Under the pieces are notes generated by a model. The model ran no database searches. It was not told the DNA's origin and saw only the letters and a list, made by a program, of their open reading frames with translations. A stretch of DNA of 64,000 bases from NCBI GenBank assembly GCA_012845835.1, contig JABAKD010000021.1, forward strand, positions 6,169,386-6,233,385, read 5' to 3'. The translations under genes were made by a program, and so were the position numbers. Positions 2,474 to 64,000 of this stretch are shown here, piece after piece. Source of the stretch: Undaria pinnatifida. Its lineage: Eukaryota; Sar; Phaeophyceae; Laminariales; Alariaceae. How positions within the stretch are numbered: the first letter of the stretch is position 1; each line of letters begins with the position of its first letter.

Positions 2474-2520
2474 CCCCCCCCCCCCTCCCCCACCCCTCCC
2501 CCCCCCTTCCCCCCAGGCCC

Positions 2521-2562
<42 letters not shown>

Positions 2563-4071: not shown

Positions 4072-5331
4072 ATGGCTGAACAGGAGGGAGGTGACCCTGC
4101 GGCAAACCAACAGGGTGACCCGCAGGTCCTTGGTGAGAGCATGGATTCCTTAGAGTCTCGAGTGTCTCAAATGCTGGATATGTTTTCTGAACAGCAGCAG
4201 ATGCTCCAGACAGTTGTTGAGACACACCAGAGGGAGAATGTGGAGTCCTCTAGTTCGCGTGCTGCGCCGCGAGGCATCGAGCTAGAGTCTGGTGTGCACC
4301 AATCGGGTGCTGCCTGTAGGACCGCGGGGAGTACGGGAGGCGATACCCTAGGCTTTGGCGTGTCCGGCATGAGGGTTGGGAGTAGGGGTGTTGTAGACCC
4401 AGGCTTGAACCCGCGTGTTTCTGTTGAGAATCGTTCCTCTGTTCCTGCAGTAAACTTTGGTTCGGTTGACGGGACTGTTGGTGGGGCTTTAGGTAGCCAG
4501 TCTTCTGTTCCGCCCACTACCTTAGCAAGTGAGGGGTGAGGAAAAGTCGCTAGTGGGAACACACTGATCCCAGCGGCTGTCAGTAGTTCGGGGGAGAGCT
4601 TGGGTGGGGGTCTTTTCAAGAAAGTTCCCAAGACTCCAGAATTTATTGGTACTGATGTATCGTATCCTTCATGGTCGCAGAATTTTCTGCTCAAAGCTCG
4701 TCACTACAATCTGAGCGAGCCGTTCACCTGTGATATCGACATTAAAATCGCCGACGTTAATTTCGACTTGACCCCTTGGATAGAGAAGGGATACAGCGTT
4801 GGTGTACTGCGTCAGCATGAGATTGCTTGGTGGTTTCTGTTCGACTGCTTGAAGAAAGACAGCCACAAAAACATGGCAGGGCAAGCTGGTTCCCCGTATA
4901 AGGCTTTTCGCGCGCCCAAGGATCACTTTCTACCGTTGAGTCAGAGTCAAATTCGAGTGCAGGAAGAAAAGCTGAAGTCTCTGCGCATGCGTTCCCACGA
5001 GAATCCCACAACTTTCTTTTCATCCATCAGAGAGACGCTTGGTGTGTTGACCATGCTTGAAGTAACGAAGGATGATCGTGAAGTGTGCAATCTCATGCTG
5101 GAAGGACTGTCCCCCGAGTACAAGACTTTACGTGAGACTCTTGTGGTGTTCTGTTCGAATGACCCCTCTTTCATCGATAATAAAGTGCGTGAGCGGTACC
5201 TAGACTTGCAAGCACAGGGTGGTTCTAAGATGCAGAATAGTGTTGCTCTGGTGTCTAGGCCTGCGAAGAAGAAGAGTAACTTCAAGAAGCACAACAAGCA
5301 GAAGTCTAACTCTGAGTCTGATTCCTCATAG
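4072..5331 (+). pseudogene. copia gag remnant
   Basis: The frame opens at an ATG (MAEQEGG...) 88 bases after the LTR and keeps one register to 5331, broken by a TGA at 4537-4539. The N-terminal part is Gln-rich and may be coiled-coil (SRVSQMLDMFSEQQQML). The second half shows the copia capsid-type helical pattern around RETLGVLTMLEV and GLSPEYKTLRETL, followed by a basic Lys-rich tail. The zinc knuckle appears only in the next frame (VGHMKLHC, near 5355-5385) and has lost its first cysteines. I infer a once-fused Gag-Pol reading frame. Confidence 0.85.
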
Positions 5332-6658
5332 AAGTCTTTTCAGGGGAGGTGAGGAGGTGGGTCACATGAAGCTCCACTGCAAGGCTCGCATCATCCCTCA
5401 TCCTTCCCAGACTGGAAAGCCCGAGGCCGACGAGAATGAGAGCGGTGAGCAGCGTGCTATTCCTGATTCGGATCTGGTGTGCAGAAATGGTAGTTACCGC
5501 ATGAGTGATGACTGCCAAAAGGTGTTGCTTGCAGCATGTCGTAAGGAAGTGGTCTTGAAGGCGTGTGATGATTTGAGTAGAATGTGGTATGATGTCTCTG
5601 GTCTGAAGTGTCCGATGACGTCCCGTGATGGTCTGATTATGAGCGCCGTCAGTAATGATATGATCCTGAAATCTGTCAACAAGGCTAGATATGTCGAGGA
5701 TTGGTATGCTGACACAGGCACTTCATATCACATGACTGATTCCCTGTCTTGCATGAGAGACTTGAAGCCTTGCGACAGAAGTGTGAATGGAATTGGTGGC
5801 GTGTCTTGTGAAGTAGCTTACTCCGGAACGCTAGACTTGGTATTTGTGACTGCTGACAGTGAGTTCTCCGTGGAGTTGAAGAACGTATTGTACTCTCCCA
5901 ACTTGGGGTATACTCTCTTTTCTCCGAGTGCAGAGTTTGATGGTGAGTCATGGAATGGTCTTGGTGGTCCTAATAGTGTCATGACTGCATTCAATGGACA
6001 AGTAACTTTACAGAACTTCGATGGCATGCTGATAACGTCTGCGTATCGCCTAGGAGAAGCCTCTGTTGGTACGGTGTTGGCTGCTCTCACTCCCGCCAAC
6101 CCCAAGCATGAAACTATCAACGATTTCCACATCATTTTTGCACATTCGCACGAGGGTCTTCTTCGCACTACTGCAAAGCGATTAGGTACCAAGTTGGTTG
6201 GTGACATGCATGCTTGTTCAGGGTGTTCGATGTCGAAGGCTATTCGGAAAGGAATCGTTCGGGAAACTAAAACTCGATCGGATAAAAAGTTGGGCAGAGT
6301 TTTCGTTGACCTTGGAGGAAGAAAGGACATTGCGTCCGTAAGGGGAAAACATTACCCCAATATTGTGAAGGATGATTTCACGAGACGTGCATGGCTGTAT
6401 TTCCTGAAAAATAAATCAGACGCTGGCAGTGCTTTCCGGAGTTTTCTTGCGAGTGTGCGTGCTGATGGTGTCCCGTCATTGGTTGAAATTGTTAGGTCTG
6501 ACAATGGTGGGGAGTTTTTCGGGGGGGAGTTTGCATCTGTGTGCAACGAGCTTTTAATCAAACAAGAGTTCACACCGGCATATATTCCGCAATATAATGG
6601 TGTTGCAGAGCGTGGGCTGGGATTGATAGAGGAGGCCGCGATGGCGGCTCGTATTTAA
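5332..6658 (+). pseudogene. copia protease-integrase remnant
   Basis: Frame 2 relative to the window. The aspartic protease motif is DTG at 5711-5719 (WYADTGTSYHMT). The GAG-pre-integrase zinc-binding region lies near 6120-6225 (IIFAHSHEG ... HACSGC). The integrase catalytic triad is visible: Asp at 6308-6310 (FVDLGG), Asp at 6500-6502 (RSDNGGEF) and Glu at 6608-6610 (NGVAERG). The frame ends at a TAA (6656-6658) inside integrase, and homologous sequence continues in another frame from about 6700. Confidence 0.92.
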
Positions 6659-6699
6659 GCTAAAGTTCTTGTTGGGCATGTACAGTTACCTAAGACTGA

Positions 6700-7671
6700 T
6701 AACTCTGGGCTGAGGCTATGCACTGGGCTTGCGAAGCGATGAACCACACTGCGTGTTCTGCTAACCCTGAATCCAAATCGCCGTATGAAATGTGGTATGG
6801 TGAACCTCGTCCCGCTAGACCGTATCCGTTTTTAAAGCCCGCCTACTGTAGGTGGCAGCGACCGTCAAAGCTGCTGCCGAAGGGTGAGAGTTGTTTCTAT
6901 GTCGGTCCTTCGAGAGACCACCCGCGTAATTGTCATAGAGTACTTACTAGGGCTGGTACTATTCAAGAAACGAGGGATGTGACGTGGGAGGTGCTGCCGT
7001 CACAGCTCCTTCCGCTGCAACCTTCTTTGCCGATAGAGGTAGCAGAGGAGGGAGGGGAGGATAGTGACGACGATGTTGAAACCGAGATATGGCCGCTTCT
7101 GGGAAGAGGAGTTGCTCACACACTTTTGAAACGTGATGCCGTGCCCTCTGGTGCTGGAGTCAAAGGGGTTGAGAGTGTTGGCGCAGGTAGTATAGGCCCG
7201 TCCTTTTCTGTTCCATCTTCCCCTCCTGAACCGTCCGCCCCCGTAAATATTTCTTCCGGTAGTGTAGCTCCTTCTGTGTCTTCGCCTGTGAATGACGGGG
7301 AGGGCCAGGGAGGGCAGGAATCAGGAGAGGTAGAGATGGGGGATCTGGGAGGGGATGATGAGGTAGAGTCGATGGGGCAGGGAAGGCATGATGATGAAGA
7401 GTCGATTGGGTCGGGAGGACTTGTAGAGGCGGAGGCATCCCCTCCAGCCGCTCGTCGTCCGCGGCATGTGGCCGAGCTTGCTGACTTTAATACTTCCGCA
7501 CGTGAAAATGATGATGTAAGAGAAGGTAGGACTCGCGCGCAAACTCGTGCAGTCAACCAGCAGAGTGTACCCGGCCTCATGGCCACCCTAGGACCCATCT
7601 TCGCGACAGAGGTCGTGTACTCAATGTTGTCGGAGCAGAGAGCAGGTGATGAGACGGAATTGCCGAAATAA
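6700..7671 (+). pseudogene. copia integrase C-terminal region and linker
   Basis: After a one-base frameshift near 6690 the integrase continues with AMHWACEAMNHTACSANPES and SPYEMWYGEPR, the usual copia integrase tail. This is followed by a Pro/Ser/Glu/Asp-rich linker of about 200 residues with low complexity. The frame ends at TAA 7669-7671, but the same register resumes into reverse transcriptase after a second TAA at 7705-7707. Confidence 0.88.
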
Positions 7672-9221
7672 CTGATTCAGGATGTAGAATCGGAGCCTGG
7701 TAGTTAACAGGAAGCCCAGCGTTCGAAGTACGCTAAGATTTGGGAAGGAGCCAGGTCTGCCGAAATTGAAGGCTTGATAAGAGCAGGAACGTTCACGTTG
7801 GCAGTAAAAGTCCCGATAGGCTGTAATGTGATTGATGCTAGGTGGGTTTTCAAGTGGAAAGCAGACAAAACAGGAAAGATAGTGAAGGCCAAGGCTAGGA
7901 TTGTAGCGAAGGGCTTCAAGCAGAGGTATGATGTGGATTATCTTGAGACATTCTCGCCTACCGCAAATGCTGCATCTTTACGATTGCTGATAGTGTTGGC
8001 GTGTTTGTACAATTTTGAATTACTCCACTGGGATATTGAGCAAGCATTTGTTCAGTCGGAATTGGATCACGAGGTGTTCATGAAGTTGCCTCCTGGCTGC
8101 GGGTCGATGTCAGGAAAGGTTGTCCGTTTGAACAAGAGTTTGTACGGATTGAAGCAGGCTTCTAGGACATTTTACAAGAGGCTGGTGTCGGAACTGAAGA
8201 GGATTGGTTTTGAGCAGTCGATGTCTGACCCCTGTGTCCTGCGTTTCATGGTGGGAGACGATGTATTGGGGATGGTCGCGATCCACGTGGATGACATTCT
8301 GTATGCAGGAAGTAAGAGCGTTGCCAAGGTGGTTGTGGCAGCACTAGGTGACTCTCTTCCTACGAAGGACTTGGGGGAGGTCAAGTTCTTTCTAGGTTGC
8401 GAATATATTCGCGACCGTGAGGCTCGTACGATTGAGATTTATCAGGAAAGTTATATCAGGAGTGTTCTCGAGAGATTCAATATCTGTCGCACCAGCTCGA
8501 TCCCTGCTTCCCTTGCCAATGATAACAGGTCCGTGATGGAGGATGAGGGGGCAGGAGATGTGCCGTTCCGAGAGGTGGTGGGGAGCCTGATGTGGATCGC
8601 CAGCCAGAAAAGGCCCAACATCGCGAATGCTGTGCGGGCGGTGGCGAGGCACTCTCACGAACCAAAGAGGAGCCACTGGAAGGCAGCTCAGAAGAATCTC
8701 AATTATCTTCTGGAAACGGCGCATCTGACTTTGAAGTTCATACAGGATAGTTCGGTGGACGAAGGCACGTTGGTGTATGTAGATGCTGACTTTGCAAGTA
8801 GGGCCACTGACCGTAGATCAGTTTCGTGGCGTGGATGCTTGTAGAATGGATTTCTAGGACGCAGAAATGCGTTTCACAGTCAACTTCAGAAGCAGAGTAT
8901 CTTGCGATGGGAGATGGTGTAAAGGAGGCTCTGTTTGTAAACGGAATGCTTCAGTTCCTGAGGCCTAGTGCGAAGCCTCGTAAGATAGATGTCCTTGAAG
9001 ACAACGAGGGGGCGATTGCGCTCGCAGAGAACCCGCTGAGCTCGAGTAGGAGTAAGCACATCGATGTGAGGCACCACTTTCTTGGGAATCTGACCGAGGA
9101 GGGTGTGATCGAAGTCACCCACGTCCCCAGCGGGAAACAACACGCGGACATCCTCACGAAAGCGTTGCCGAGAGATCTTTTTGAAGTTCACCGCGACTTT
9201 GCACTTGGTATCAAGAAGTAG
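7672..9221 (+). pseudogene. copia reverse transcriptase-RNase H remnant
   Basis: The register is the same as the preceding linker. Reverse transcriptase begins near 7730 (KYAKIWEGARSAEIEGL). Conserved copia stretches include DARWVFKWK, IVAKGFKQRYDVDYLETFSP, EQAFVQSELD, KSLYGLKQASR and the active site HVDDILYAG, whose two Asp codons are 8290-8295. RNase H starts with Asp at 8782 (VDADFAS). A frameshift near 8830 moves to frame 3, which carries STSEAEYLA, LEDNEGAIAL and SKHIDVRHHF and ends at TAG 9219-9221. Catalytic residues are largely kept, so loss is through stops and shifts. Confidence 0.93.
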
Positions 9222-9828: not shown

Positions 9829-11270
9829 CCCCTCCCATCCCTCCCCCCGCCTCCCCCCCCCCGCCCTCCCCCCCCCGCCCTCCCCCCGCCCTCCCCCCCC
9901 CCTCCCCCCCCCCTCCCCCCCCCCTCCCCCCCCCTCCCCTCCCCCTCCCCCCCCCCTCCCCCCCCCCCCCCCCCCGCCCTCCCCCCCCCGCCCGCCCCCC
10001 GCCCTCCCCCCCCCCTCCCCCCCCCCTCCCCCCCCCTCCCCTCCCCCTCCCCCCCCCCCTTCCCCCCCCCCCTCCCCCCCCCCTCCCCCCCCCTTCCCCC
10101 CCCCCTCCCCCCCCCCTCCCCCCCCCCTCCCCCCCCCCTCCCCCCCCCCCTCCCCCCCCCATCCCCCCCCCCTCCCCCCCCCCTCCCCCCCCCCCTTCCC
10201 CCCCCCCTCCCCCCCCTCTCCCCCCCCCTTCCCCCCCCCCTCCCCCCCCCCTCCCCCCCCCTTCCCCCCCCCCTCCCCCCCCCCTCCCCCCCCCTTCCCC
10301 CCCCCCTCCCCCCCCCCTCCCCCCCCCCTTCCCCCCCCCCTCCCCCCCCCCTCCCCCCCCCCCCCCCCCCCCCCCCTCCCCCCCCCATCCCCCCCCCCTC
10401 CCCCCCCCCTCCCCCCCCCTTCCCCCCCCCCCCTCTTCTCCCCGAACCCTCCCCCCCCCCCTTTCCCCCCCCCGCCCCCCGCCTCCCCCCCCCCGCCCTC
10501 CCCCCCCCCCCCTCCCCCCCCCCCTCCCCCCCTCCCCCCCCCCCCTCCCCCCCTCTCCCCCCCCCCTCCCCCCCCCCCCTCCCCCCCGCCCCCCTCCCTC
10601 CCCCCCCCCCTCCCCCCCCCCCCCCCCTCCCCCCCCCCCCTCCCCCCCCCCCCCCCCCCACCCCCCCCACCCTCCCTCCCCCCCCTCCCCTCGCCTTCCC
10701 CCCTCGCCTTCCCCCCCCCCCCCTCTCTCCCCCCCTCCCTTCCCCGCCCTCTCCTCCCCCCCTCCCCCCCCCCCCCTTCACCTTCCCCCCCCCCCCCCCC
10801 CCCATCCTCCCCCCCTCCCCCTCCCCCTTCCCTCCCTCTCCTCCCCTCCCTCCCCTCCCCCGTCCCCTCCCCCTCCCCCTCCCCTCCCTCCCCCCAACCC
10901 CCCCTACCCCCCCTCTCCGTCCCCCCTCACCCCCCCTCCCCCCCCCTCCCCCCCCCTCCCCCCCCCTCCCCCCCCCCCCCCCCCCCCTCCCTCATCCTCC
11001 CCCCCTTCCCCTTCCCCCCCCTTCCCTCCCCCCGCATTCCCCCCCCCGCCCTCCCCGCCCCGCCCTCCCCCCCCCCCCCACCTCCCGCCCCCAACCTTCC
11101 CCCCCAGCCCCCCCCCTCCCCCTCCCCCCCCCCCCCCCCCCCCTCATCCTCCCCCCCTTCTCCTCCCCCTCCCCTCCCTCCTCTCGCATTCCCCCCCCCC
11201 GCCCTCCCCCCCCCCCCCCCCCTTCCACCTTCCCCACCCCCCCCCCCATCCTCCCCCCCTCCCCCTCCCC
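9829..11270. repeat. C-rich pyrimidine satellite, right block
   Basis: Same composition as 2474-3444: C runs broken by T, CT or TT, with a locally regular period around CCCCCCCCTT/CCCCCCCCCT in 10060-10360. The reverse strand is G-rich with many runs of eight or more G, so quadruplex formation is chemically plausible. The 514-codon Pro frame across it is an artefact. Confidence 0.93.
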
Positions 11271-46228: not shown

Positions 46229-46590
46229 TATTGGAGTATGGTTTGGTTTGGTTTGGTTTGGTTTGGTTTGGTTTGGTTTGGTTTGGTTTGGTTTGGTTTG
46301 GTTTGGTTTGGTCTGGTTTGGTTTGGTTTGGTTTGGTCTGGTTTGGTTTGTTTTGGTTTGTTTTGGTTTGGTTTGGTTTGGTTCGGTTTGGTTTGGTTTG
46401 GTCTGGTTTGGTTTGGTTTGGTTTGGTTTGGTCTGGTTTGGTTTGGTTTGGTTTGGTTTGGTTTGGTTTGGTTTGGTTTGGATTGTTTTGGTTTGGCTTG
46501 GCTAGGCTCGGCTTGGTTTGATTGTTTTTTGTTGGTTTGGTTTGCTTGGATTGGGTTGGGTTGGTTGGGTTGGGTTGGGTTGGATTAGGT
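46229..46590 (+). repeat. TTTGG pentanucleotide satellite
   Basis: About 55 near-perfect GGTTT units to about 46490 with sporadic C or T substitutions (GGTCTGG, GTTTTGG), grading into GGTTGGGTTG variants. The repeating FGLVW frame is an artefact of the 5-bp period. Confidence 0.95.
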
Positions 46591-49789: not shown

Positions 49790-50345
49790 ATAAATGTATA
49801 GCTTCCTCGCAAAGATTGAGCTGCCCCACCCGCCCCCCCGCCCCCGCCCCCCCCCATGATAAACTGGTGCATTTTTTTTTTTTTTTTTCCAAAATCGTCA
49901 GATTTATCCCCTTAATAGGATTTATAGCCTCCACGCACGAATTTCCCGCCCCCCCGCCCCCCCCCCCCTGCCCCTCCCTTCCACCCCCTTCAACCTCGTT
50001 CCTTTTTATCGAAACCAGGCCCCCACGTCCTTCAAAACTCCGCCCTCCCCTCGACGGTTATTCGACGCGTACAGTATCCACTTGATAAACTGATGCATTT
50101 CCTTCCACAGCTGCCAGATTTTGCCCCCCTCAGAAACGGGTTTCATAGTTTCCGCGCACAAACTGACTAACATCCCCCTGTTGACCCTGGTAGCTACACT
50201 GTAGTTGCAAGGGGAGTCGCCGACCTGTATCCTTAATTAGGACACACAACCCGTAATACGAGCGATCGGAGTATCACACATAGCTTGCAACTATGAGTTT
50301 CGACAAAATCTTCGATCTCACAGCTGGAGTGAATTTTCATTTTTT
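49790..50345 (+). repeat. dispersed repeat D4, copy 3
   Basis: The C-rich head is duplicated (49823-49856 and 49948-49990). The body matches 25171-25610 and 47060-47420. The tail at 50290-50340 encodes MSFDKIFDLTAGVNF. It ends about 50 bases before the stop codon of the minus-strand gene. Confidence 0.8.
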
Positions 50346-50390
50346 CTAACGATATATTCAGTAATGTTGGCGAATGTTAAAGTTTAGTCA

Positions 50391-50726
50391 TCAAGCTCTA
50401 TGCGGTTTGGTTGGCCACATTGCGAAAACCTCGTACCTTTCGCATGTACTTTGGCAGCACACGGTATACAAAAACATGTGATAAGTACACCGGGTGCAAA
50501 ACGGGGGCATGACGGGGGGAAAGGGAAGTGGACATGCCTGAACGTGTCTCCTGCTGAACGTCGCCTTCATCGTGGCCCAGCTGTTCCAACATATGGACAG
50601 GCCGAAAACCACTTGTACCACTATCAGCAACACCGCATAGACAGCGCTGCCGTCAGAGTTTTTGTCGGTCAGGTTGGTTTCGATTATCAGCGCCAAGAAG
50701 TTGCTGAAGAAGATGACGAGGCACCC
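50391..50726 (-). CDS. membrane protein gene, exon 11 (3' end uncertain)
   Basis: Acceptor CTGCGACCGAATAG. Encodes GCLVIFFSNFLALIIETNLT, a helix, then DKNSDGSAVYAVLLIVVQVV, then FGLSICWNSWATMKATFSRR. The frame stays open to TGA at 50391-50393. The last 50 codons are Cys/Pro-rich and unlike the family, so the exon may end at CACGTTCAG with a GC donor (50538/50537) and continue in an exon further left. Confidence 0.75.
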   Translation of the reverse strand, partial: GCLVIFFSNFLALIIETNLTDKNSDGSAVYAVLLIVVQVVFGLSICWNSWATMKATFSRRHVQACPLPFPPVMPPFCTRCTYHMFLYTVCCQSTCERYEVFAMWPTKPHRA

Positions 50727-53700
50727 CTATTCGGTCGCAGACAGAGGGAGGTCGCAAAACGGCACCAGTAGCGGGATCGAAAGTTCAGGAGTTTGCCGTT
50801 CGCGTGCGAATTTTGATCGAAGGGGATAGCCAGAAGAGTGCTTGGTTCCTCTGGATGAGGTAAGATGCAATCATCTTCAGAAGCACATACAAAACTGGTG
50901 CTTTGACTGGGTTCAGCCGCCGATTTACATGTGAATACGTAAGCACAGCCGTTCCTTTCGCTAAAGATTGACTACGACCCTATGTTCCGCGGAAATTATA
51001 AACTTCGAGCCATCACAACAGTGCGATGTCACGGACAAGCCTGTTCAAACGCTTTTTTGTTATCAGCTCCATAGGGAGGTATTTGCCACGGACGCTTCCC
51101 AAGGTGTAATCATTGCTACAATAAATAGCTGGGCGGTGTCGCCGGCCTCGTTCGGCCGCAACACCAGTAGGCGATATTCAACGGTGCAACACTCACTAGG
51201 CCCCCTTCATTGGCCGTATTTCTCACCGACAGCCGTTCTTTTAGGCAGGCACTGACGACGACCATATGTCCCGCGGAAACTATAAACGTTGAGCCATCAC
51301 AAACCGTGCTATATCAAAGACAAGGGAGCCTGGAAAAATGCATTGTTGTTCTCAGCTCTAGACTATAGGGAAGATTTAGTGACTGACGCATCTCAAGATG
51401 GAATCGTTGCGACTATGAAGAACTGGGCAGTGTCGCAGGCCTCGTTCGGCCGCAACAACAGTGGGCGAAATCTTCGGTGCAACACTGATTGGTCTCCCTT
51501 GAATGGCCGTCTCTCTCACCGTGCGGTAAAGCTGAATTTCCAATTCGTCGATGTGTGGCATCTTGATCTCGAACGCTACAAGGCTTTCCAACCCAGACAT
51601 ATAATATGTGGAAGACGAGGAAGTGGCGGCCGCAGACGACAGGACAGCGTTACGTGGGAACATGATAAGCAATGCATGAGGCGTCACTATACGATCCCTA
51701 TACTTATTAAAATGTTTGATTAAACGTTTGACTCAGGTGTCATAGTTGTCTCATGGATAAGCCTCGGCTGGTGTGTGTTTCGCCATCTTTTCGTTTTCGG
51801 TCGGCGCTGTTGTCATAGCCTAATCTTTAGGACCCGGCCTTTTGGTCGACGAGACCAAGTAGTGCCCCCGGCAACAAATACCACGTGGGTCTCTTCACTT
51901 CGATATGACAAAAATTTGACGACAAGCTGAAAGCAAGTTCCCCACCAAAATCTACGTCTTCTATGCGTCACATTGATCACCACCTGTGACCATCGCCCTT
52001 GGTCTAAATGTCCACGAGTGGTTACGGCCCTTAGGTGATCAGAACGATCCCACAAAAAACCAAAGACGACGATGGCCATTAGATCGGTAATCTTTTTAGA
52101 GCGCGTCTAGCAGTACGAGCATTGTTGTGCTACAGCGTGTGTTGCAAAAGTCCATCTATTACTGCTCGGTGCCATTTCCTACCCTATAAGCCCATATCAA
52201 CAGGTGTGGTCGATGACCTCATCGTCGGCCACGTATCGACAGAATTTTCAGCGACATCAAAATTGGGGTCAACTTGGCAATAAGTGCACGGGCGTCACAA
52301 GCCTGACAAAAAGGTGTTGAGGTGCTTTGGTGCAAACGCCAAACTGCGTCGCGTCGGCGTGATGTCCAATGGGCGACGGACCTTTGCGTGCAGACTAGTA
52401 CTTTCGCTGTTCAACTCTCGCCGCCGCCGTGGTTGTCTCGTTTAGAATGTGTCGTTTAAATCTCTCCATTTCAAAATCGCCGCATGTTTCTTAAGCGCGC
52501 AGCCAAAAAATAACGATGGATGAAAATATCAGGATGGACGCCCTACTCACTCACCCTCCAACGGTCGACCGCGACAACCATTGCTGTTGTCCAGATGATG
52601 CAAGGTCTAGTCACGTCATCACCCCCGATTTTGTTTTTGTTTTTGGCGTAATTAGTTGTTTTAGTCGCGCGTCATGAAGATATTCAAAAATGTGATTGGT
52701 ACGTATAACAAGAGCACGACCGCTTGCCAAAGCAAAAGTAATTGTAAAAAAAAAACTCCGGTCAGAGCGAGCCAGAAATTGTCGGGAAGGGACTCCAACT
52801 CTGTTTGTCTTGACGTTTTAGGCCTTTTTGTCGGTGCCGTTTCCAGCTGTCGTGAGCATCGTACCTGATAAAAGCGAATATGCAGCCGTACGCCACCTGT
52901 CCCGACGTGTCCGGCACAAACACTAACAAACCGGTTAGCAGCAGGCGTCTCATACACTCGAACACCTTTCGCGAGGAATGAATGAAAACCAAACAAAACG
53001 GAAATCGGAAACAGCACGAAAGATTTCGAAGCGCACAGCAGAGTAAATACCACAGTAGTTGCCGTTTTTCGAGTCACCGCGTACTATTGTTTAATGGTAC
53101 TTTGTTTTTGACATGGTGAGAGCAATGCATATGAAGATGATTTTCTATCTGGGCCAAGACACGGGTCTCGGGTTTATCGGTTCCATCATGCAGTGGCTGA
53201 CTGGAACACAGGAGTTGCCACATACAGCTTGCAAAGATGAGTTTCGACGAAATCTTCGATCTCACAGCTGGAGTGTATTTTCATTTTTTATAATAATAAT
53301 TGTCCACCATTATTTTTGCATCAGTATGTACGCTCGAAAATGGGATGTTTGATGCCGTGACACGCATGAGCCACGCTTCAGACTGCCAAACGTTTTCCCA
53401 CAACAACTTATGATACTTATCGACGTATGGACTACGTATCGTTCCACAGAACGTTTTGACCTCGCGTAACTATAACGTCGATTTTCAACCTATCTGTCCC
53501 GGCCATCTGCTGCCAAAAATCAGATATTACATGCCCGGCAGGTTTTTACCTTTCTTTCTGGTGTGGTGCCGGTATCAACTAGACCATTCAGAAAGCGTGC
53601 TGCAACGCTCCCGGTCAAGCATTTTGTGTTGTGCTCCGCCATGCGCGGAAAAAACATCAACATCATGGTGAATACCGCGAGTCGTACCTCGAAGTAGTAG

Positions 53701-56700
53701 CAGGTGGGGTAGTAAGCGCCCCAGAGGAAGGATGTCGGCGCAACGCTTTTATCATTCGCTCGCTTGGTGATCGCCTCTTTCTGGAACACAGTACCGGAGG
53801 GAGGCAAGTTCGAGTAAGGGCAGAAGTAACGCTTTCTGCGGGAACCGAAACAGGAAACGAAACGATTGCACACTAGACCATACCTACAGTACTATGTATC
53901 GCGAGTATCTCGATGGCTGTACGGCCATGTGTATCACGAGATCAAACTTGATATTTGAGGTGCTGTGTTTTTGCGATATCGATGCGGAGTTTGAGGTAAC
54001 ATCAATTATGGGTGTGAAAATGGCCAAACGCACTTAACTGTTGGTCAACGAGTGGCCTATATTCATACACGCTCGACAAGTTTTATGTACTCGCCCTCCG
54101 TCCAACAGGGCAAGACCATTGTGAGAACACAGGCGCCTTCTTCGAACCGGTGAAACTTTTGCACCTATTGCATAGATCATTAGATGGGTGTCCTATGTCT
54201 CATATATATATATATTTACAGTGTGTTATTCAGGGTCTACGTGGCACTGAAGAAACGGAGTTGGAACAGGTGCCAGGCCGTTTAGATCATTCGACGTTCA
54301 CCCGTCGACACGGGATGCGTTGCAAGATGCAGACAACACAAACCAAGCAGTTGTCCGTCCGCCTCCAAGACATACACCATCATCAATAATTTGACGTGTC
54401 CGATGCCTGGGTCTTTGTCGGTTAACGGGTTCCAGATATTGTAGATGACACCTCAAAACGTCGCCTTCAATTGGTCGGCATCCGGACAATCACGGCTTGT
54501 GGGATGCACCCTTTGATATGCGTTCATAATGGGCAATACGTTTAGACGTCTCAAGGTGAGGACCGAAGGTTGGACCAGGTGCGTACATACATTACGTTTT
54601 GCTAGCTTAGCTCATGTTATGCAGGCTCAAGAGGGAGACACCGTTGTACTAAACCATCAGGAGAATAGCATATCGATTGAGGAATTTGTACTCACCATTG
54701 TAACGTGCAGGTTTGCAGAGATTGCTGGGCTTTTTCACCAAACGGATTGGATACGCATTGTGAACTCGAGATAATATATGCTGAGGGAAAGTGCTTCCTT
54801 CTGCGTACTTCACCCCTTCCGACACATTATTTGCCCATGCTGTGTACAAGGTAAGGTTCAACGATAATTTCTCTCACCACAACGTACTGCTTCCCCTTTT
54901 CATTTTCCAGGCTCTTGTCGATCGGAGGGTTGATCACAGACCTCTGGCGCAGAAGCATGTACAGGAATGCTGCGGGAATGCCGAACGGGTCTGTGTGCGA
55001 GGGAGAGTGTTCGATAAAGAAATGCGGCGGGCATCCGAGAGTGGCACAAGCCGCAGGTTGCGTTGCTCAATCAGTGAGGATGAAGTGTTCCATATAAAGA
55101 ACGAGATAGCAATTAGACACTTCCACCATTACTAGGACGTTCTTCAAGTTCGTTACGAGGGGGACGTACTGTTATAGGACGATATGGATGAACCAACAAC
55201 TCAAGTTCAATTTTACAATAATTCAGACCAATGCGTTGTGGAAACGGTGCCACAAGCAATCAAAGTCACAATTTTAGGACCAGCCACATGTACGAAAACA
55301 ACACACCAACTGGGTAAAATACACTTCTCGCAGACTCAACGATTGCGTTGCTGCTGTGTGTCATGACAGGTTGGCTTCAACTCTACTCATCAAATCGCAC
55401 TATGAAGAGGAAATCTTATTCCCACCGCGAACACATTCGGAGCCCGCGCCGTTCGGGATCGGCTACGGTAGCATGTTCCTTCCACGGTTACAGCAGTCGC
55501 CGAGGAAGGACGAACGCTATGATGTCTTTTGACCTACGTTCTTGCGGAGGTCTTCAACAACTCCGAAAGGCTAACTGTGAGAGAAAAAACGGAAGAGCTG
55601 CCCGATGAGACGTCCCGTGGCTCGTTCGTGCCCTAAACGTGTATGCGTTGTCAGTCTACAAGATCAGAATTGTTCAAACAAGAATTGGTGGAAATACCTT
55701 TTCAGTCAAGAATGTCTTGAGTAAACATTCCATACGCATCGGGGCATACGTTTTCGCCGGTAGGCAACTGCAACGTCACAAACGTCGAGCAATCTGTGTT
55801 TTGTTTTTATGGATGGTGTACCAGCCCCACATAATGAGGTTCGAGTATCCGGGCGCGGTGCTTCGTTCAAGCGCCAATATCAAGCTTCGGCGATGTAACG
55901 ACTAATGGATGGAGTTCTGTCAGATTTGCTCTTGAGACGCCTTAGAAATGGTGCTGGAAAATGTTCGCGAGAAACAGCGTCGACAAGCGGCAATTATTGC
56001 AAACATGAAACACATAATTTCTACACCGTACTAACCAAACTATAACACGGATCTATTTCTACAAAATCAACGATGTGTGCCATATGTATACCCAGTTGTT
56101 TGGGCCCCACCGCAGCACAGCGAGCACACTACAGTTTTTCTACTAGTACATCGAGTCGAAGTGAGGTTTGCCGGGTAACTAGGGATACGACCGCAATTGC
56201 GACGAAAAATTACTACAGCTATCCGAGCGCCTCTCCAGCAACGAAACGCAGGGTGAGCAGCGCCGTTGCTCCCGGTCCAAAGTTAGAGTATAGAACATGA
56301 GCGACTTGTCGTGATAAGACATTTTATTCCCACAGTCATTTATGACTATTGGAAATCTATATCGCAGAAGTCGTGCAAGGTCAACACCCATCCCACGGTA
56401 GGGGTGCAATGCAGCAGATTCCAAGAATTTTCTGAGCTTTCAACATGACAATATCTGACACTATCTCACGCGAATAATATATTCAAAGGCATTCGTTCGC
56501 GCGCCCCCCGCCAAGCGTCTATGCCCTAGTCCAAAAAAAGTTGTACTCGCAAAGTCGTTAGGCTCTAAATTAACAACCATTAGTTCCTCTCACTGGAGGA
56601 GCTGAACCGGCAATGTATGCCTTTTTTTGGCGAAAACAATACAAGCCCTACCGTGGAATGATTCTATGGTTGGTACTTCGCGTCGTGTTTAGAACCTTTT

Positions 56701-59700
56701 CATTTATACTTTTGAAGCCAGGGGAGCACTCGCACCAACTTGTCGGGAAGGCGTATCTCCATTTTCGACACGGCATTCCAGCCACTCGTCCGAGTAACTC
56801 CGCACCCCATGTACGGCAATGTTTCTAGGCTTTGGTTTGACGCAGCCAAGCTTCAGCGATTTTACGGCGCGAAGGCCGCACCGCTAACAAAACGGCGTGG
56901 GATCTTAAGACGTCAACGGAACGAGAAGGTGACGGTGCCCCCTAGCCACTTCAACTGCTGGTCCAAGCCTTTTGGCCTTGGTCCTCTCCGAGGCTATCCT
57001 ACGTGACCTATCAACATCGATGTTTACGTAATGATTTGAATTGTTGCTACCGTGTGGAGATCGGGAGAAACAGTCGTTGCTCGCCCACGGCAACATGTGT
57101 TTCGTCGTATAATAAGCGGCATCCTGTAGCACTTTATTCGGTCATTTTTTATTACACATCCACCCTTGTACAAGCAAGCACAAAATCACCTAACTGACGT
57201 ATACCGTTCGAGGCGACACATAAACATATAAATATATACCGCCCGATGGAAGAACATAGCTTGCCTACATGGACTCGGAACGAATCTTCGGTCTCGCAGC
57301 AGGCACGATTGTTTTCTCACTACCGAAACTCACAGATGCAGACCATTACGCCGGCGTATACCATGTACGCTTTGTGCGTGGCTGTATCGCACTCGATGTC
57401 GCCATCAGCTCTCAGATGGCGTTTCCCCACCTCTGGATAGTCGTCACATGCGAACGTTTGGAAAATCTGCAGAGAAAACAAACGGTATCGCAACAGTGCA
57501 TTGTTGTCCACATCATCACATGTACGTATTTACCCTGAAGGCGGGTGTTCCTAAACACGCTTTGCGTGATAACCGCGTATTAGCATGCATATCATGGGTA
57601 TCTCTGTATATTCTCTACACGGTATACGCGCATCCTAGGTTCAGGAAGAAGGAGACCGATGTACCTTCGAAGCTCATCGTGTTTACGCCAATGCCTTGTT
57701 GCGTTTTCAGCCCGACGTCAACCCGCGGTAAAAAACCTCAAACGTTAACTTTATCATGAGCACCCACAGAAATGGGTTGTAGACTAAAACCTAACTGAGC
57801 AAAGCCCGTTCACACGTTCGATTTTCATGCACATTTTCATTCTCTCTCTTGCATTCGCTGGACGTAGACCTCCTACTCTTAAAACGCACCACAGTGGAAA
57901 CCTGGCTGTACACCAGATAAAGTACGATTAGGGTCATGGTGGTGTGCCGAGCGAAGAGCGCCCCCAAGGAATCCTGCGCGTGAGCAAAGCAGATTTCACA
58001 GCGAAGACAGGGACAGATGGGAGCAAGCGAGACCGCAAGCACACCAATTTTCAACGAAGAGACCAACTATTACCACCCTCGTGTGCCGGCGCGGATTCTC
58101 ACGCATGTATACGGCGACCAGCAACTTCCGCCCGCTGTTGTCCAACAAGTTTATACTTTGAAAAACCAAGATATATGAAAAAATATTACACGGGATCTGC
58201 AGCAACGTTCAACGAGCACCAAAACAAGAGCGTTTTCACCCCAATACCCTGATAAACCACCCGTCAATCGATGCGTATCATGCGCACCTTGGAAGACAAC
58301 GAAGATTATGCCAGCCCAGCGGGCGGCTACATGATCGCGCCCCAAGCAAAGAACCCTGCTGCTGCGGGCGCGACGATAGAGGTAGCACTTTTCGTCTGTA
58401 ACGGTTTCTAGAAGACGGTGCTCCTTAGCCCATTGCTTTTTGCATGGTTCTAGTTGTTTGCCTAAACCATGAGATTTTTCATCCGGGAGCAGTTCATATT
58501 TTTCTCCGAACCAGGTTTTGGGTCAAGAAGGACATGTCTTGACCGCTCCTAACGTGAGGGGTAGTATTGGAATATAATACTGGTGCACCTCTATTGTAGA
58601 ACGGGTTATCTGGGCACCGTGGCTGCTAGTCACCTGCTCTGCGCCCGCCTTGCCCCCTGGCCCGGCTTTCCAGTCACTTCCGATAGATCTTCTGGATGTC
58701 GCGAACGGTTGAATCACATGACCCGGAGTTTCCGTCGATTGTGAATTCCTCACCTGCGCCCCGCCAAAAGGTGTGATCCAGCTGTTCTGAACACTTGGCG
58801 CCGGGCTAGACTGCGGAGCAGAAGAAGTTTCGCGGTCTGTCATTCTCTCCACCACGGGTTCTTGCCCGTTAGGTACCACTGTTTCGGAATTTGCGTCAGG
58901 CATGTCGGTGCTCGTCGTCGCTGTTCCGAACGCAACAGTCCTTGAGCTGAAGCGGCGTTCAAAAATCTCGATAGACCCTTCAGTCCTCGTCCTTCCGCTC
59001 GTGGCGTCGTGGCCTTCAAAGCGCGATTTTCCTCTGCTCCATCCATAGTAGAAGGTGATCCCCAACAGGCAAAGAAGGACTAAAGGGCCGATTGTTACGA
59101 TCCTGTACGAGGATCGGCGGCCGTATTGAGGTACGTTCGTTTGATCATCCGAAGTATGCCGGAAACGGGTGGGAGGGGTAGGGCGCTAGTATAAATGTTT
59201 ACCTGTTGAAAATACTCCCACTGCTGACGTCCAGGAGAGGGATTAGGTTAGGGTATATGCACACAAAGAGAGTAAGCCCCAGACAAAAATACGCCATACT
59301 AAACAATTCACATTCGCCGGTGAAAATATGCCACACGCACGAAGGCCCGTAGCATCACACGGTCGGCGGTGAAGTCTCTACAAACAGCAAAATCGACGGT
59401 AGAACAGGGAGTACGGTACAGCATTTTATGCCCCAACGGCGTCCGAGCGCAGAACCTCCCTAATACTGCAGTACCTTTCAATATGTCTACTTTTGAGACC
59501 GTAATAACGCATGGTGTGGCCGTCGCTACGCACTACAAACTCCTTAAACGTTAGGTGAACGGCAAGCACAAGCTGCCCAGAAAGACTCTATCGTTCGGTC
59601 CGCGCTTCCATTTGTTTTCGCCTAATGTAGCCACAGGCTACGCAGGACGCGAATGGATTACTCTATCGATTGCCCAACACACGAAAAAAGGCACTTACAA

Positions 59701-62700
59701 TAATTTAGCATGGAAGCCAACGCTCGGGGCCACACAGGTCGCGGAAAGTAGCCAGCCAAGGTCCAGAGAAAAAACACCGATGATCGAAAGGAAATTCTCG
59801 TAAATTGGTGGAAACCCCACATTTGTGACATCAGCAAACTGCACACGCAAAGAAGGAAGCAAAGGGCACGATATGAGGTTTTCTTGAGCCCATCAGAAAG
59901 AAGCCACGAACAAAACGCAATACGTCGGGGGAAATCGTGAAGGGAAGTTGTCGATGGTGCGAAAACAGGCCACAACACAGCTGAAGATCTGCAGCACTGG
60001 TGTCGTGGAACCCTCACGGAACCATCGCGCCCGTCGATACAAAGCAGACTTTAAGTATTTGCGGAACATGTGAATTTATCGACAGCATGCTCAGTTGTCT
60101 GAGTGGGCATCATCTTCGGTTTTTTTCGTCTGTAGGTGACTTTACCCCCATCAGTATCATGACCCCCCTTCGTGTTGGACGCGAGGCCCATGTGTTGAGT
60201 TACTGAGTTGCTGAAAGGTGATACGATCGCGGAGAATTGTTGAAAGAAAACTCGTGTGGTGTATAAAGTCTCTGCTCGGCGTAGGGTACGCGACACACAA
60301 AAACGCCGGTATCACGCTTGTGTTCATCCGAGCCTCAAGCTGTGGGGCCGGCGGTGGGTGTGGAGGGGGCTCAAAAACACATTTTTAATTGGTATACCTC
60401 CTATATGCTGTATTTTTATCCTGAGGACTATACCCATCGATCTACTATGCTTTCATTCGGGCATTATGGCGAATCAAGTTTTTCCCTACCTTTTAGTTCG
60501 TGTGCCTACGAGATACGGTCGGTTTCTCAGTTGTACTATATCCAGTACGCAGTAACAAGCCTGCGGCAATTGTGGATGTAATAGCATACCTCTGTTTTCC
60601 GCTGATGGCTTTGAGCCACTCGCACGAGTGACTCTGTGCCTCACTGTCGAAACGTCTAGAGGTATGTCTGGCTTGCAAGCAGCGTAGCTAACTATGTTGC
60701 ATTGCAAACTTACGTCGCTGGATAGTTTTTACCAACCAGCCGCCAAGGTACACGGGGTCACTCGCGCTAGTGTGGCTCCGATGGAGGTGCTCCACTTTTT
60801 TTCTCCGATGTTGATCGATTTGAGGCACCACAAGACCTCTTCCAAAAACTGATTTCGAGGAAATATGTAACTCGCTACTGAATTCATGAACACTCCTAGG
60901 GTCCCCAGGGGTACAAAATGAAGAATCATATATAACTGAAATGAAAAAATTCTGGCGATACTTTCGGTTTAAAAGGCCGGGTTATAAAACAACAGCTTCA
61001 GAACAAAAGTGATGCCTCGATCGTAACACGCGTAGCATTCGCTCTCGTGACGACCCTTCACCCCGGATGGTTACAATCTATAGCTGGTTTGCTGATTTCG
61101 TCGTTGGAGCTCTGAAAAACGATTCGGTTCGGAGTATGACCAGGTAAGAAACTATATCACCTCACTATTCCGCTGATTTTGAGAACCCGTTGCGGGACTT
61201 GTCCAACGCCCAATCCAACCGCGGCGAGGATGTCTATGGCCAGGAGATTAGCGTGGCTTGGATTGTGACTGGCACATTCTACCAAGGAGGTAGCGGTTTC
61301 ATCTAGGATCGTTTCTGAACGACGTAGAGTCTTGATCCAGAACCGTTGAAAAAAAATCATGTTTTGTTTGTGCATGATTATCGTTGTGCGCCTAGGCCAT
61401 ATGTGATTTTGCATCCGGTACAGGTTTGATTTTCACGAACTCCGTTGTTGGGGGAGGTGCCCAAACGCATGAACGTCAGATGAAAAAGTGGCGAACCTCT
61501 ATAGTAGCACCCGTCACATGTATCAGGTCAAACACCGTGAGACAGCCTATTACTTCGTGGACCCCGTCAACAGGCACAGTTTGGTTTAATGATCCACCTA
61601 TAGCGAGCGGCTCATTCGTTCTCTGGTCCAAGTCTCATTCGTGACGACGCCGGTTGGGCAACCTCCGCTATGCTTCACTAAAAATGTGGCGCAACTAAAG
61701 CGGCGACCCCACGACAACTCCAAGTATCTTGCGGCTACGACAACATTTGCATTGTCATACGGCACGCCTCTATGTCTATTTCTCGGCTTACCGCGGCGGA
61801 AATTTGCCAGACAACTGCCCTCCATGAACACATCAGAAGTGGTGTTGGAGAGCCGCCGACGACAACGCAGTTGCACACGGCGACACGGACAAGAGAACGC
61901 AGGAGGCAGGTTGAGGAACACAGAGAGAGCAACGACGTAGGAAGGTTAATGGTTTGGAATTCCAAGACTCCAACATACTGAAAACAATTTCGTACTCCGT
62001 ATGCAATACCGGAAAGGTGAACGATGAAAGGTGTATATTTTCTGCAAGCTAGCAACTTGTTTAGGTGTCGAGGGTGGGTCGTAGCATAGAGTACTAATCA
62101 AAGCTAACACCACGGTTCCCAGAAGAGAGTGTACGCTCCCAAGCGTAAACGCTGGCTACCTTTTTCTTCCTGACATGGGCTTGACGCCTACACACCCCGA
62201 CGAGTCAGCAATGAGACCGCAATGTGCAAATCTCAAATTGTTTATGAGCAGAAGCTTGTACTTTCCCATGGTGCCGGAACGTTTTCCAGCAGTTATGTAA
62301 CTGTTTGATTGCTGTGATTCCTGACTGATTCTACTTTAGCCCCCCCACGAGCGCGACGAGTTTCTTTAACAAAACGTTTCATGGCTGTTTGACAAAAGGA
62401 AATATGCTACGAAAGATATGTATTCACATATTTCCCTGTTGTAAAAGCGCTATCGGAAGATGACGTCGGGATGGCCGGAGGCGCCGTATACGGCACGGAG
62501 CCGGTTTCGAAAACCGGCGATTTCGTTAAAAGAAAGTTTGGAGGCTGCCATAGAAACGATTCACTTGCAGCGTCAATCGTTTTTACCCAATTTCGCAGAG
62601 GGTGCCTGATTGATTCCCTAAACAGACGATGGGATTAATTCTACAGTTAGAAGTCATCCCCCACGGTAAGTAGGATCCGCACGTTTTGCGCCAAAAACGG

Positions 62701-63534
62701 TACACCGGGTCGGTGGAGCTCCTCAATCGAGAGACTAACGGTTATCAAAAAACATATATAAGTGCACTTTGTTTTTTAAAACTAGGCCATAGACGCTTGG
62801 CCGGTTCGCCTATATCGAATCTCTGTGACAAGGTGGCTGTTTCCAACCATTTCAAGCAAAAGGGTTACTCTACAGTTTCCGGGGATAGCATCTCAAAAGT
62901 GCTTCAAAATATCCGAACTCGAAAGTGTTGTCCGTGCGTAAAGTAACAGGCAGAGAGCTTGTTCGCACACGGTAAACAACAAAATATCTCGCCTATGACA
63001 ATCTTAAGCTTGGACAGCGGCAGCCCCGTAAGGAACGCTCCGACCCTCCAGCCCATCGTCCTTTGGTCTTTTTTTCGCACTTCCGCAGAGGGCTCCTCAG
63101 CATGCTCCTTTGGTTCGTTCTGTACCTGGCCATCTTCCATCACCGATGATCCACCATACGCTCTGCTCACCCCAGACTGGGAGTCGATCGCTCTCTCCGC
63201 ACTCGAACCGGCGCTTGCTTCACCGGTACTACCGTCATTGACGGAATCTAGGTTGACGCCCCCATCGAAGCTACGACCTGTAGATTTTATTCCGACGCGT
63301 CGTCGATCCCATCGGAAACTGGAGAAACCGGTTGGCTTGGAGGTAGCTCGACTGAAGTCGGTTACACCGCCCACTTCCGAGCGAGACAACATAGCGGCAC
63401 CGCGGCGTTGAATCTTCGCCACCGACTGCTTGGTGCTGGCCACGGTGGTGGACACGGCGCCCCCGCCGCCAATCTGAGCGCGTGAGTTCGGGGTGTCGTC
63501 AGCGTTAACAGGGTTCATCGTTTGGTTCGACCAG
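50391..63534 (-). CDS. multi-pass membrane protein, 3' portion of a spliced gene (11 exons)
   Basis: Joining 63534-62993, 61814-61792, 59838-59699, 59102-58634, 57973-57890, 57466-57334, 54990-54878, 53780-53688, 52965-52865, 51583-51520 and 50726-50391 gives about 698 codons in one frame. All ten junction phases agree. The order is a Ser/Gly-rich cytoplasmic linker, then LSKLKIVI, FPPIYENFLS, TIGPLVLLCLLGI, a second Ser/Pro-rich loop, LYLVYSQVSTV, FQTFACDDY, HLRADGDIECD, YPFGIPAAFLY, SFLWGAYYPTCYYFE, RRLLLTGLLVF and LVIFFSNFLALI, with about eight membrane segments. From memory this is the C-terminal membrane domain of very large surface proteins with cysteine-rich (GCC2/GCC3-like) ectodomains, common in brown algae and some other protists. 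Substrate and function are unknown. The 5' exons lie right of 63534, probably outside the window. Intron 1 uses GC-AG; nine others are GT-AG. The 3' end is uncertain. Confidence 0.82.
50967..51519 (+). repeat. two-copy ~285-bp tandem repeat within intron 10
   Basis: Copy A starts ACTACGACCCTATGTTCCGC (about 50971) and copy B ACGACGACCATATGTCCCGC (about 51255). Both contain GGCCTCGTTCGGCCGCAAC and a GTGCAACACTSA stretch. In one plus-strand frame the copies read TDASQGVIIATINSWAVS and TDASQDGIVATMKNWAVS, and most differences there fall on third codon positions. Confidence 0.8.
51520..51583 (-). CDS. membrane protein gene, exon 10
   Basis: Acceptor GGTTGGAAAG, donor CGCACG followed by GTGAGA, 64 nt. 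The first base C completes Ser, then LVAFEIKMPHIDELEIQLYR and Thr. It continues the helix begun in exon 9. Confidence 0.85.
52865..52965 (-). CDS. membrane protein gene, exon 9
   Basis: Acceptor CGCGAAAG, donor ATCAG followed by GTACGA. Encodes VFECMRRLLLTGLLVFV, a helix, then PDTSGQVAYGCIFAFI, and ends with two bases AG of a Ser codon. Confidence 0.9.
53215..53290 (+). repeat. D4 tail copy (MSFD motif) in intron 8
   Basis: ACATACAGCTTGCAAAGATG and the plus-strand frame MSFDEIFDLTAGVYFHFL followed by TAATAATAAT. It is the best-preserved example of the tail. Confidence 0.75.
53688..53780 (-). CDS. membrane protein gene, exon 8
   Basis: Acceptor GTGTTCCAG, donor GAG followed by GTACGA, 93 nt in phase 0. 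Encodes KEAITKRANDKSVAPTS and FLWGAYYPTCYYFE. Confidence 0.9.
54878..54990 (-). CDS. membrane protein gene, exon 7
   Basis: Acceptor TCCCTCGCACACAG, exon start ACCCGTTCGG, donor GTTGTG followed by GTGAGA. The Tyr completed across the junction gives YPFGIPAAFLYMLLRQRSVI then NPPIDKSLENEKGKQYVV. The preceding intron of 2.3 kb is the longest and contains a MITE copy. Confidence 0.88.
56735..57010 (+). mobile_element. MITE copy 5, decayed, in intron 6
   Basis: CCAGCCACTCGTCCGAGTAA, CGCACCCCATGTACGGCAAT and GTTTGACGCAGC align with copies 2 and 3, and the right end CCCCTAGCCACTTCAACTG matches CCCCTAGCCACTGAAATTC. Terminal repeats are eroded. Confidence 0.6.
57246..57312 (+). repeat. possible diverged D4 tail copy in intron 6
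   Basis: ACATAGCTTGCCTACATGGA followed by GAATCTTCGGTCTCGCAGCA parallels the tail of D4. The frame MDSERIFGLAAG keeps the spacing of MSFDEIFDLTAG. Divergence is high. Confidence 0.45.
57334..57466 (-). CDS. membrane protein gene, exon 6
   Basis: Acceptor TTTGTTTTCTCTGCAG, donor ATCT followed by GTGAGT. Encodes IFQTFACDDYPEVGKRHLRA then DGDIECDTATHKAYMVYAGV and MVCI. The Cys pair and the LRAD stretch are family signatures. It ends on one base T of a Tyr codon. Confidence 0.92.
57890..57973 (-). CDS. membrane protein gene, exon 5
   Basis: 84 nt, phase 0 at both ends. Acceptor TGCTCACGCGCAG, donor GTG followed by GTGCGT. Encodes DSLGALFARHTTM and LIVLYLVYSQVSTV, a membrane helix. Confidence 0.88.
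58634..59102 (-). CDS. membrane protein gene, exon 4 with long loop
   Basis: Acceptor CTCGTACAG, donor CAG followed by GTGACT. The exon completes a Leu codon and gives IVTIGPLVLLCLLGITFYY, a membrane helix. A Ser/Thr/Pro/Gln-rich loop of about 130 residues follows (for example SAPQSSPAPSVQNSW) and ends GAEQ. The open frame continues past the donor to 58523, so the exact end is inferred from phase. Confidence 0.8.
59699..59838 (-). CDS. membrane protein gene, exon 3
   Basis: Strong acceptor (CTTCCTTCTTTGCGTGTGCAG, read in two parts CTTCCTTC and TTTGCGTGTGCAG) and perfect donor GTAAGT. It encodes FADVTNVGFPPIYENFLSII followed by GVFSLDLGWLLSATCVAP, and ends with two bases TT, which with the next exon G make Leu. 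Confidence 0.88.
60579..60790 (+). mobile_element. MITE copy 6, decayed, in intron 2
   Basis: TTTGAGCCACTCGCACGAGTGACTC, quoted in parts as TTTGAGCCACTCG and CACGAGTGACTC, is identical to copy 2. The right palindrome is GGGGTCACTCGCGCTAGTGT. The centre and termini have diverged. Confidence 0.65.
61792..61814 (-). CDS. membrane protein gene, 23-nt microexon
   Basis: Acceptor GGAGGGCAG, exon starting TTGTCTGGC and ending GCCGCG, donor GTAAGC. With one base from exon 1 it reads VVWQISAA and leads in phase 0 into FADVTNVGFPP. The Trp-Gln-Ile position after KIVI is typical of the family. The polypyrimidine tract is weak, so this is the least certain exon. Confidence 0.6.
62335..62560 (+). repeat. 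dispersed repeat D2, copy 2, in intron 1
   Basis: Direct partner of 24290-24535: TTTCTTTAACAAAACGTTTC, GGCGCCGTATACGGCACGG and CCGGCGATTTCGTTAAAAGA. Confidence 0.65.
62993..63534 (-). CDS. membrane protein gene, exon 1 of those seen
   Basis: An acceptor-like TTTTTCCACCATAG precedes CTGG at 63534; otherwise the exon could start at the ATG at 63518. It encodes a Ser/Gly/Arg-rich, presumably cytoplasmic linker (MNPVNADDTPNSRAQIGGGG ... SAEVRKKDQRTMGWRVG) ending LPLSKLKIVI. The exon ends ATAG with GCGAG following, a GC-type donor. Choosing this donor is the only way I found to join the next segment in frame. Confidence 0.7.
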
Positions 63535-64000
63535 CTATGGTGGAAAAACTATCTAATAAAAAATTGTGCGTATTTTACAAGTACGAGCGGATTAATTCCT
63601 GTACGGCTCTCTGTATATGCCCGCGAATGTTGTAATTACTGTGTTTGTATTGGTTTTGTAAACTGTCTCTTGCCCTGATGCTTAGGCGACATTCATCTGA
63701 ATGAAATCGTAGAAAATAGAACCAGTATCGGTGGCATTTTTCACGTGCTTAACAATTGTTCGGACGACATCAACAAATGGCGCCACGAAAGCGGAGTAGT
63801 TTGAGCTGTTGGGGTCTAAAAGCTACGGTCGATCCAGAGTATCACACGCGTTGAATGGGTTCATGAGCGAGGCGAAGGCAGGGTTATTCAGCACACCCAA
63901 TTTGCCGCTGGTGCATATATGACACGGGAAAACATTACGATCCTTCTTTACGACGGAAAAATAATCAGCACGTTTGAGAAAAGGTCAGATTGCGCGTTTT
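63535..64000. other. probable intron or 5' region of the membrane protein gene
   Basis: If exon 1 starts at an acceptor (63535), this segment is intronic and the ectodomain exons are outside the window. No exon, promoter or signal peptide was recognised in it. Confidence 0.4.

Follow-up and report, generated by a model that had tools for sequence, protein, structure and literature searches.

Does the minus strand of a 64,000-nucleotide (nt) stretch of the Undaria pinnatifida genome (C28:6169386-6233385, called the window here) carry a real spliced gene for a membrane protein, and if so, where does that gene begin and end, and what might its product do? An initial annotation had joined eleven exons in frame over ~13 kb of this strand, between positions 50391 and 63534, and had placed the product in a family of large surface proteins. 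Comparison with paralogous copies shows a conserved spliced coding sequence, with a predicted product of 1,926 amino acids (aa), that is under purifying selection as judged from the ratio of nonsynonymous to synonymous substitutions (dN/dS) and that sits in a cluster of paralogues. On this evidence, the locus is a real spliced gene whose product, a membrane protein of very large size, belongs to an extensive and little-studied family. As modelled, the gene runs from position 46016 to 25 kb past the window edge. With a probability of roughly 0.62, it is a functional nuclear gene for a surface receptor, in which a ligand-binding ectodomain would be joined to a signalling polytopic core.

Gene structure and its support from paralogues

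The final model comprises 27 exons (5,781 nt including the stop codon) and spans 43,147 bp; the last 12 exons, which contribute 2,073 nt of coding sequence (stop included), lie in the window (Table 1). Introns of 232-4,339 nt (median 1,281) make up 37.4 of the 43.1 kb (87%). Donors are GT in 24 of the 26 introns and GC in the other two, and all 26 acceptors are AG. The eleven-exon core proposed initially could be reproduced with AG acceptors and GT or GC donors, and each of its three split codons was recovered: Leu (59699/59102), Tyr (57334/54990) and Ser (52865/51583). Since the exon coordinates of that annotation were absent, agreement was judged on span, microexon, split codons and total length. 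What did not hold was its completeness or its limits. The true last exon lies beyond the proposed 3' end, the first exon in the window is internal, and 15 more lie beyond the window.

Support for a spliced membrane-protein gene with the YPxGIP (here YPFGIP) and FLWGxYxPxxYYxE motifs, as originally proposed, came from the paralogues. A search of the genome (511 Mb, 68 contigs) with exon C3 as the query yielded at least 49 matches, all counts being lower bounds: 11 on C28 at 5.88-7.27 Mb including the window copy, 14 on C32 and 24 on other contigs. Among the matches off C28, 34 of 38 fall within open frames of 299-551 aa. Six of the ten other C28 copies, p2 to p7, were compared with the window gene, over stretches covering exons from N6 on in p6, from N7 on in p2, from N11 on in p4 and p5, and from N14 on in p3. 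Exons C1 and C3-C11 were found in order in these paralogues, with splice junctions and phases preserved wherever they were readable. No match to C4 or C5 was found in p4, where that region includes an N run of 5,000 nt, and C11 was not found in the stretch of p5 that was compared.

The 23-nt microexon, C2, was also predicted correctly by the initial annotation, and is present in 7/7 copies as VWQIS[AS][AC] between AG and GTAAG. Of 2000 first-order Markov sequences generated from the same 3,135 nt, 1 contained a 23-nt stretch of the form AG..GTRAG that carried a WQ[IV] motif. Additional evidence for the exon chain came from intron-poor copies on C32, C30 and C52 (stretches L030, L031 and L032). 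L030 and L031 read through C1-C2-C3 without introns. In L032, an uninterrupted open reading frame (ORF) aligns with the spliced core C3-C11 with 110 of 322 columns identical (34%; E 3e-57 in a one-sequence search), where the core omitted the bulk of the C4 loop and three residues (YFE) of C8, and p4 was not among the joined cores. This alignment supports the exon order across eight junctions independently of the choice of splice sites.

The intron-poor copies have the same order of parts as the window gene, namely a repeat ectodomain, a GYWR-type Cys-rich segment, a transmembrane segment (TM) and the core; for the ectodomain, pieces were observed in L030 and in L031. They differ from the window gene in that several exons are fused, and identity in the matched pieces N4-N14 is 29-55%. 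The GYWR-type segment lies before TM1, and its exons N12 and N13 were matched in p2, p4, p5, p6 and p7 as well as in L030, L031 and, more weakly, L032. In both its collinear core and its GYWR-type segment, the window gene agrees with the genome's own large surface-protein family, which is marked by FADVTN.., YPxGIP and YYFE motifs.

Exon boundaries and donor sites

The exons upstream of the window were located in stretches L009, L010 and L029. N1 is supported by p7, which has the same Met start (44%, E 1.7e-55), as are N2 (53%, E 4.9e-33) and N3-N5. N1b was found through the comparison with p7 (50%, E 1.3e-13), and its acceptor scores -4.5. Support for N6 came from p6 and p7, and each of N7-N14 is supported by three to six paralogues. 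N1, N1b and N2-N5 therefore depend on p7, together with weak N4 and N5 pieces in L030 and L031. Several N-terminal splice sites of the model have low scores, and further small exons of the N-terminal half could be absent from it.

Within the window, the 5' end of C1 is the boundary with the most candidates. C1 is an internal exon whichever of 63473, 63548 and 63534 is its start, and an ATG at 63518 was rejected as a translation start for this reason. The start is most likely 63473 (CAG|ATTGGC), as judged from copies in which conservation begins at most two residues from there (6/6 paralogues) and from the intron-poor L030 and L031, which read continuously from the preceding TM into ..VGG.. across the N14-C1 join. 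The acceptor scores argue the other way, with -0.3 for 63473 in the window copy versus 6.1 for 63548 and 5.0 for 63534, so that a copy-specific N-terminal extension of C1 from either of these sites could exist.

Other boundaries were decided by the paralogues. C4 ends in ..[EK]Q|GT in all six matching copies (own, p2, p3, p5, p6 and p7), and a shorter exon with a donor after 58754 was rejected on these grounds. The C7/C8 junction was placed at ..QYVV|GTGAGA / TTCCAG|AAAGAG (54878 / 53780), with the donor conserved in 7/7 copies; the alternative donor at 54888 with a longer C8 was rejected, since a stop closes the longer exon in p2 and p5. C11 ends at 50538 with CACGTTCAG|GCATGT, and 50537-50391 is intron read-through, so the stop at 50391 was rejected as the end of the gene.

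The GC-AG intron proposed initially was borne out for the intron after C1, where a donor at T|GTTGTT was rejected because its spacing to WQI is wrong and the paralogues use ATAG|GY. This donor is GC in four copies (own, p2, p3 and p6) and GT in three (p4, p5 and p7). After C11, the donor is GC in the own copy and p2 and GT in p3, p6 and p7, these being the five copies readable at that site (p4 and p5 are unreadable there). The two comparisons indicate that one intron position can have a GT donor in some paralogues and a GC donor in others.

Table 1. Exons of the modelled gene, in order of the minus strand (window positions unless given as C28).
Feature	Position	Strand	Description
15 further modelled exons (N1, N1b, N2-N14)	C28:6258547-6235187, window-equivalent 89162-65802	-	outside the window, reaching 25 kb beyond its edge
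Intron part before C1 (total 2,328 nt)	63474..64000	-	within the window
C1	62993..63473	-	internal exon after TM1; 160-aa loop; ends ..LSKLKIVI; GC donor ATAG|GCGAGA
C2	61792..61814	-	23-nt microexon, VWQISAA; flanks AG|...|GTAAG; unseparated by an intron in L030 and L031
C3	59699..59838	-	FADVTNVGFPPIYENF.. exon; 72-89% identity in 6 paralogues; at least 49 genome matches
C4	58634..59102	-	TM and variable loop; ends ..AEQ|GTGACT
C5	57890..57973	-	LFARHTTM.. TM exon; matched in 5 paralogues, not p4
C6	57334..57466	-	2-Cys loop and start of next TM; phase-1 end leading to split Tyr
C7	54878..54990	-	YPFGIP exon; donor GTG|GTGAGA, position kept in 7/7 copies
C8	53688..53780	-	FLWGAYYPTCYYFE exon; acceptor TTCCAG; paralogue matches
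C9	52865..52965	-	VFECMRRLLLTGLLVFV exon; 82-97% identity in 6 paralogues
C10	51520..51583	-	(S)LVAFEIKMPHID exon; split Ser; paralogue matches
C11	50538..50726	-	GCLVIFFSNF..SRRHVQ exon; second GC donor CAG|GCATGT
C12	46016..46198	-	last exon: GIVLGVDLVDEENAD..AVPELFG and stop; acidic tail; matches only in p2, p3 and p6 (E 1.3e-17 to 2.8e-20); dN/dS 0.21

Protein layout and candidate functions

The predicted protein consists of a putative signal peptide, a POMP/PMP-type repeat ectodomain, a Cys-rich segment and 9-10 membrane segments. The region before TM1, including the putative signal peptide, has 1,213 residues, of which 175 are acidic, 62 are basic and 30 are Cys. Ten hydrophobic segments, including two that overlap, occur in the C-terminal part, ahead of a 77-aa tail. 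N-glycosylation sequons are concentrated before TM1, where there are 27, or 26 if overlapping ones are not counted, compared with a maximum of 24 (mean 14) in 1000 shuffles; there are none in the three long loops predicted to be inside, and one in a short outer loop. Repeat motifs are likewise enriched in this region: GG[AVIGF][ILVFMY] occurs 18 times versus a mean of 2.3 (maximum 9) in 1000 shuffles, and FxxN occurs 10 times versus a mean of 3.0 (maximum 9).

Pfam scans used models older than the final one, and the scan of the repeat and Cys-rich parts lacked exon N1b. In a 298-aa repeat piece, POMP_repeat scored 32.1 bits (cut-off 15) and Chlam_PMP 23.7 bits (cut-off 20.6). The likeness to the chlamydial Pmp/POMP proteins (TIGR01376, PF02415) lies in GG-type and FxxN repeats within a large surface domain. 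The chlamydial proteins are autotransporter-like with a C-terminal beta-barrel (PMC2997323), whereas the window protein would have a Cys-rich stalk and a helical core with 9-10 membrane segments, and none of the scanned protein pieces had a Pfam match to a C-terminal autotransporter beta-barrel. The GCC2/GCC3 (Ephrin_rec_like) domain that the initial annotation had named was not recovered: with a limit of E 1, the Cys-rich part matched only DUF7630 (the best, E 0.037 and 0.056), IncE and DUF4714, all below cut-off. The membrane core matched no Pfam family at a meaningful E value (limit E 10, using an earlier core model with a longer exon 8 and, in one run, a false C-terminus); the sole match of a 120-aa core piece was a P5A-ATPase hairpin at E 0.56. 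A comparison of the core with PDB also gave no meaningful match, with one centrin row at E 2 and 35 rows of glutathione transferases and fusions at E 0.47 or higher; a further PDB search returned no rows. Rfam gave 0 matches, and comparison with viral contigs and phage records returned nothing informative.

The pattern of selection differs between parts of the protein. Over all comparisons of the window copy with its paralogues, dN/dS of the core is 0.12 (1,968 codon comparisons), as against 0.31 for the Cys-rich exons, 0.32 for the ectodomain and 0.43 for the two long loops (C1 and C4). On conserved blocks picked by motif, values of 0.11-0.21 were obtained in 21/21 pairs. A core more constrained than the ectodomain, within a cluster of duplicates, is the pattern that a set of surface receptors would show; an adhesin or a channel would also be compatible with it. 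It is very improbable that the window copy is a decaying pseudogene. The neighbouring p3 has a frame change in C6, and relic duplicate exons occur in the window copy and in p4, both of which would fit decay; the window copy itself keeps an open 5,781-nt frame through 27 exons, with GT or GC donors and AG acceptors at all 26 introns, and dN/dS of its core is 0.10-0.15 against each of the six paralogues.

The protein is read here as a surface receptor or adhesion protein, and the receptor reading would work as follows. The N-terminal hydrophobic signal would take the protein into the secretory pathway. An ectodomain of ~1,200 aa, whose GG-type and FxxN repeats may by analogy form a beta-helix, would be exposed together with a Cys-rich stalk, and the chain would cross the membrane 9-10 times, leaving the acidic tail inside. 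By analogy with chlamydial Pmp, the ectodomain may bind extracellular-matrix sugars or the surface of a partner cell, and the conserved polytopic core would relay that contact into the cell. After duplication, the ectodomain and two loops would have diversified while the core stayed nearly fixed.

Two other functions have to be weighed against this one. In chlamydial Pmp, adhesion requires both FxxN and GGA(I,L,V) motifs (PMC2997323), and the ectodomain here has 10 of the former and 3 of the latter in strict form. The protein might be a structural adhesin whose ectodomain glues cells or wall polymers. Under that model, the membrane part would be a mere anchor, and a core of 9-10 segments that is the most conserved part of the protein exceeds what an anchor needs; the adhesin is considered unlikely. 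Somewhat less likely still is a TRP-like mechano- or ligand-gated channel, with the ectodomain as a sensor of force or ligand. Fungal Flc/TRP-like proteins have a similar arrangement of signal peptide, ectodomain, about nine TMs and inner tail, a likeness of general layout only. The core, in its earlier model, had no match to any Pfam family, the TRP-like family included.

Several observations weigh against the favoured receptor reading. The absence of Pfam and PDB matches for the core leaves receptor, channel and adhesin indistinguishable on that basis, so function is inferred. One sequon lies in the tail, which the predicted topology puts inside. At 3 occurrences, the strict GGA(I,L,V) motif does not exceed the highest count among the shuffles (3; mean 0.3), and a 1,189-aa piece scored 11.7 bits against Chlam_PMP (E 0.37), below cut-off; on these two results, the resemblance to Pmp could be convergent. 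The dN/dS values come from matching stretches, which favours low values, the motif-picked blocks lean low in the same way, and for p7 dS has reached or nearly reached saturation. Finally, the gene model is a prediction from genomic sequence and paralogue comparison.

The surrounding cluster

The window also contains traces of the neighbouring copies. Positions 1-15 of the plus strand hold the last codons of C11 of p7 (..RRHVQ|GTGCG); no C12 of p7 could be located in the window, where 1974-2473 is a run of N. A relic duplicate of C12 lies at 47578-47510 on the minus strand (GITLGVDLKDEEDED.., 61% over 23 aa), with no AG acceptor at its start and an early stop. Similar remnants occur in p4 (L019, about 7022-7660), where the intact C8 is followed by three or four decayed copies, relics of tandem exon duplication. 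The frame change in p3 (L015, about 2206-2073) may reflect a pseudogene or an assembly error.

Repetitive sequence is found in and around the introns. An interspersed repeat occurs in introns throughout the cluster, at 50275-50354 and 53219-53298 in the window and with similar copies in p3, p4 and p5 (~77-99% alike in the matches seen). Intron 10 has, at 50945-51521, repeated segments spaced at 284-294 nt, one of which starts at the C10 donor. Extended C-rich tracts, together with a TGGTT array of 69 units, are located at 2474-3444, 9839-11270 and 46239-46581, the last in the final intron. A retrotransposon lies at 5204-8841 on the plus strand, with Pol_BBD and rve in one ORF and RVT_2 in another (two of the five neighbouring ORFs scanned had matches); from the RVT_2 type, it is presumably copia-type.

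The 11 copies of the C3 exon over 1.4 Mb of one contig, and at least 49 in all, raise the more tentative idea of a lineage-specific repertoire of recognition receptors, in which POMP-like ectodomains are carried on a new polytopic signalling core and the copies, having diversified outside the membrane, would allow a multicellular alga to recognise self and non-self, gametes or pathogens. This proposal is doubtful at present. The value of the locus lies in the corrected gene structure, the evidence on GT and GC donors and a membrane core without a family type, and it illustrates how such intron-rich genes are truncated when a single window is read. If the repertoire proposal were true, a multicellular lineage would possess a large and so far uncharacterised array of surface receptors, with a core outside the curated families searched.

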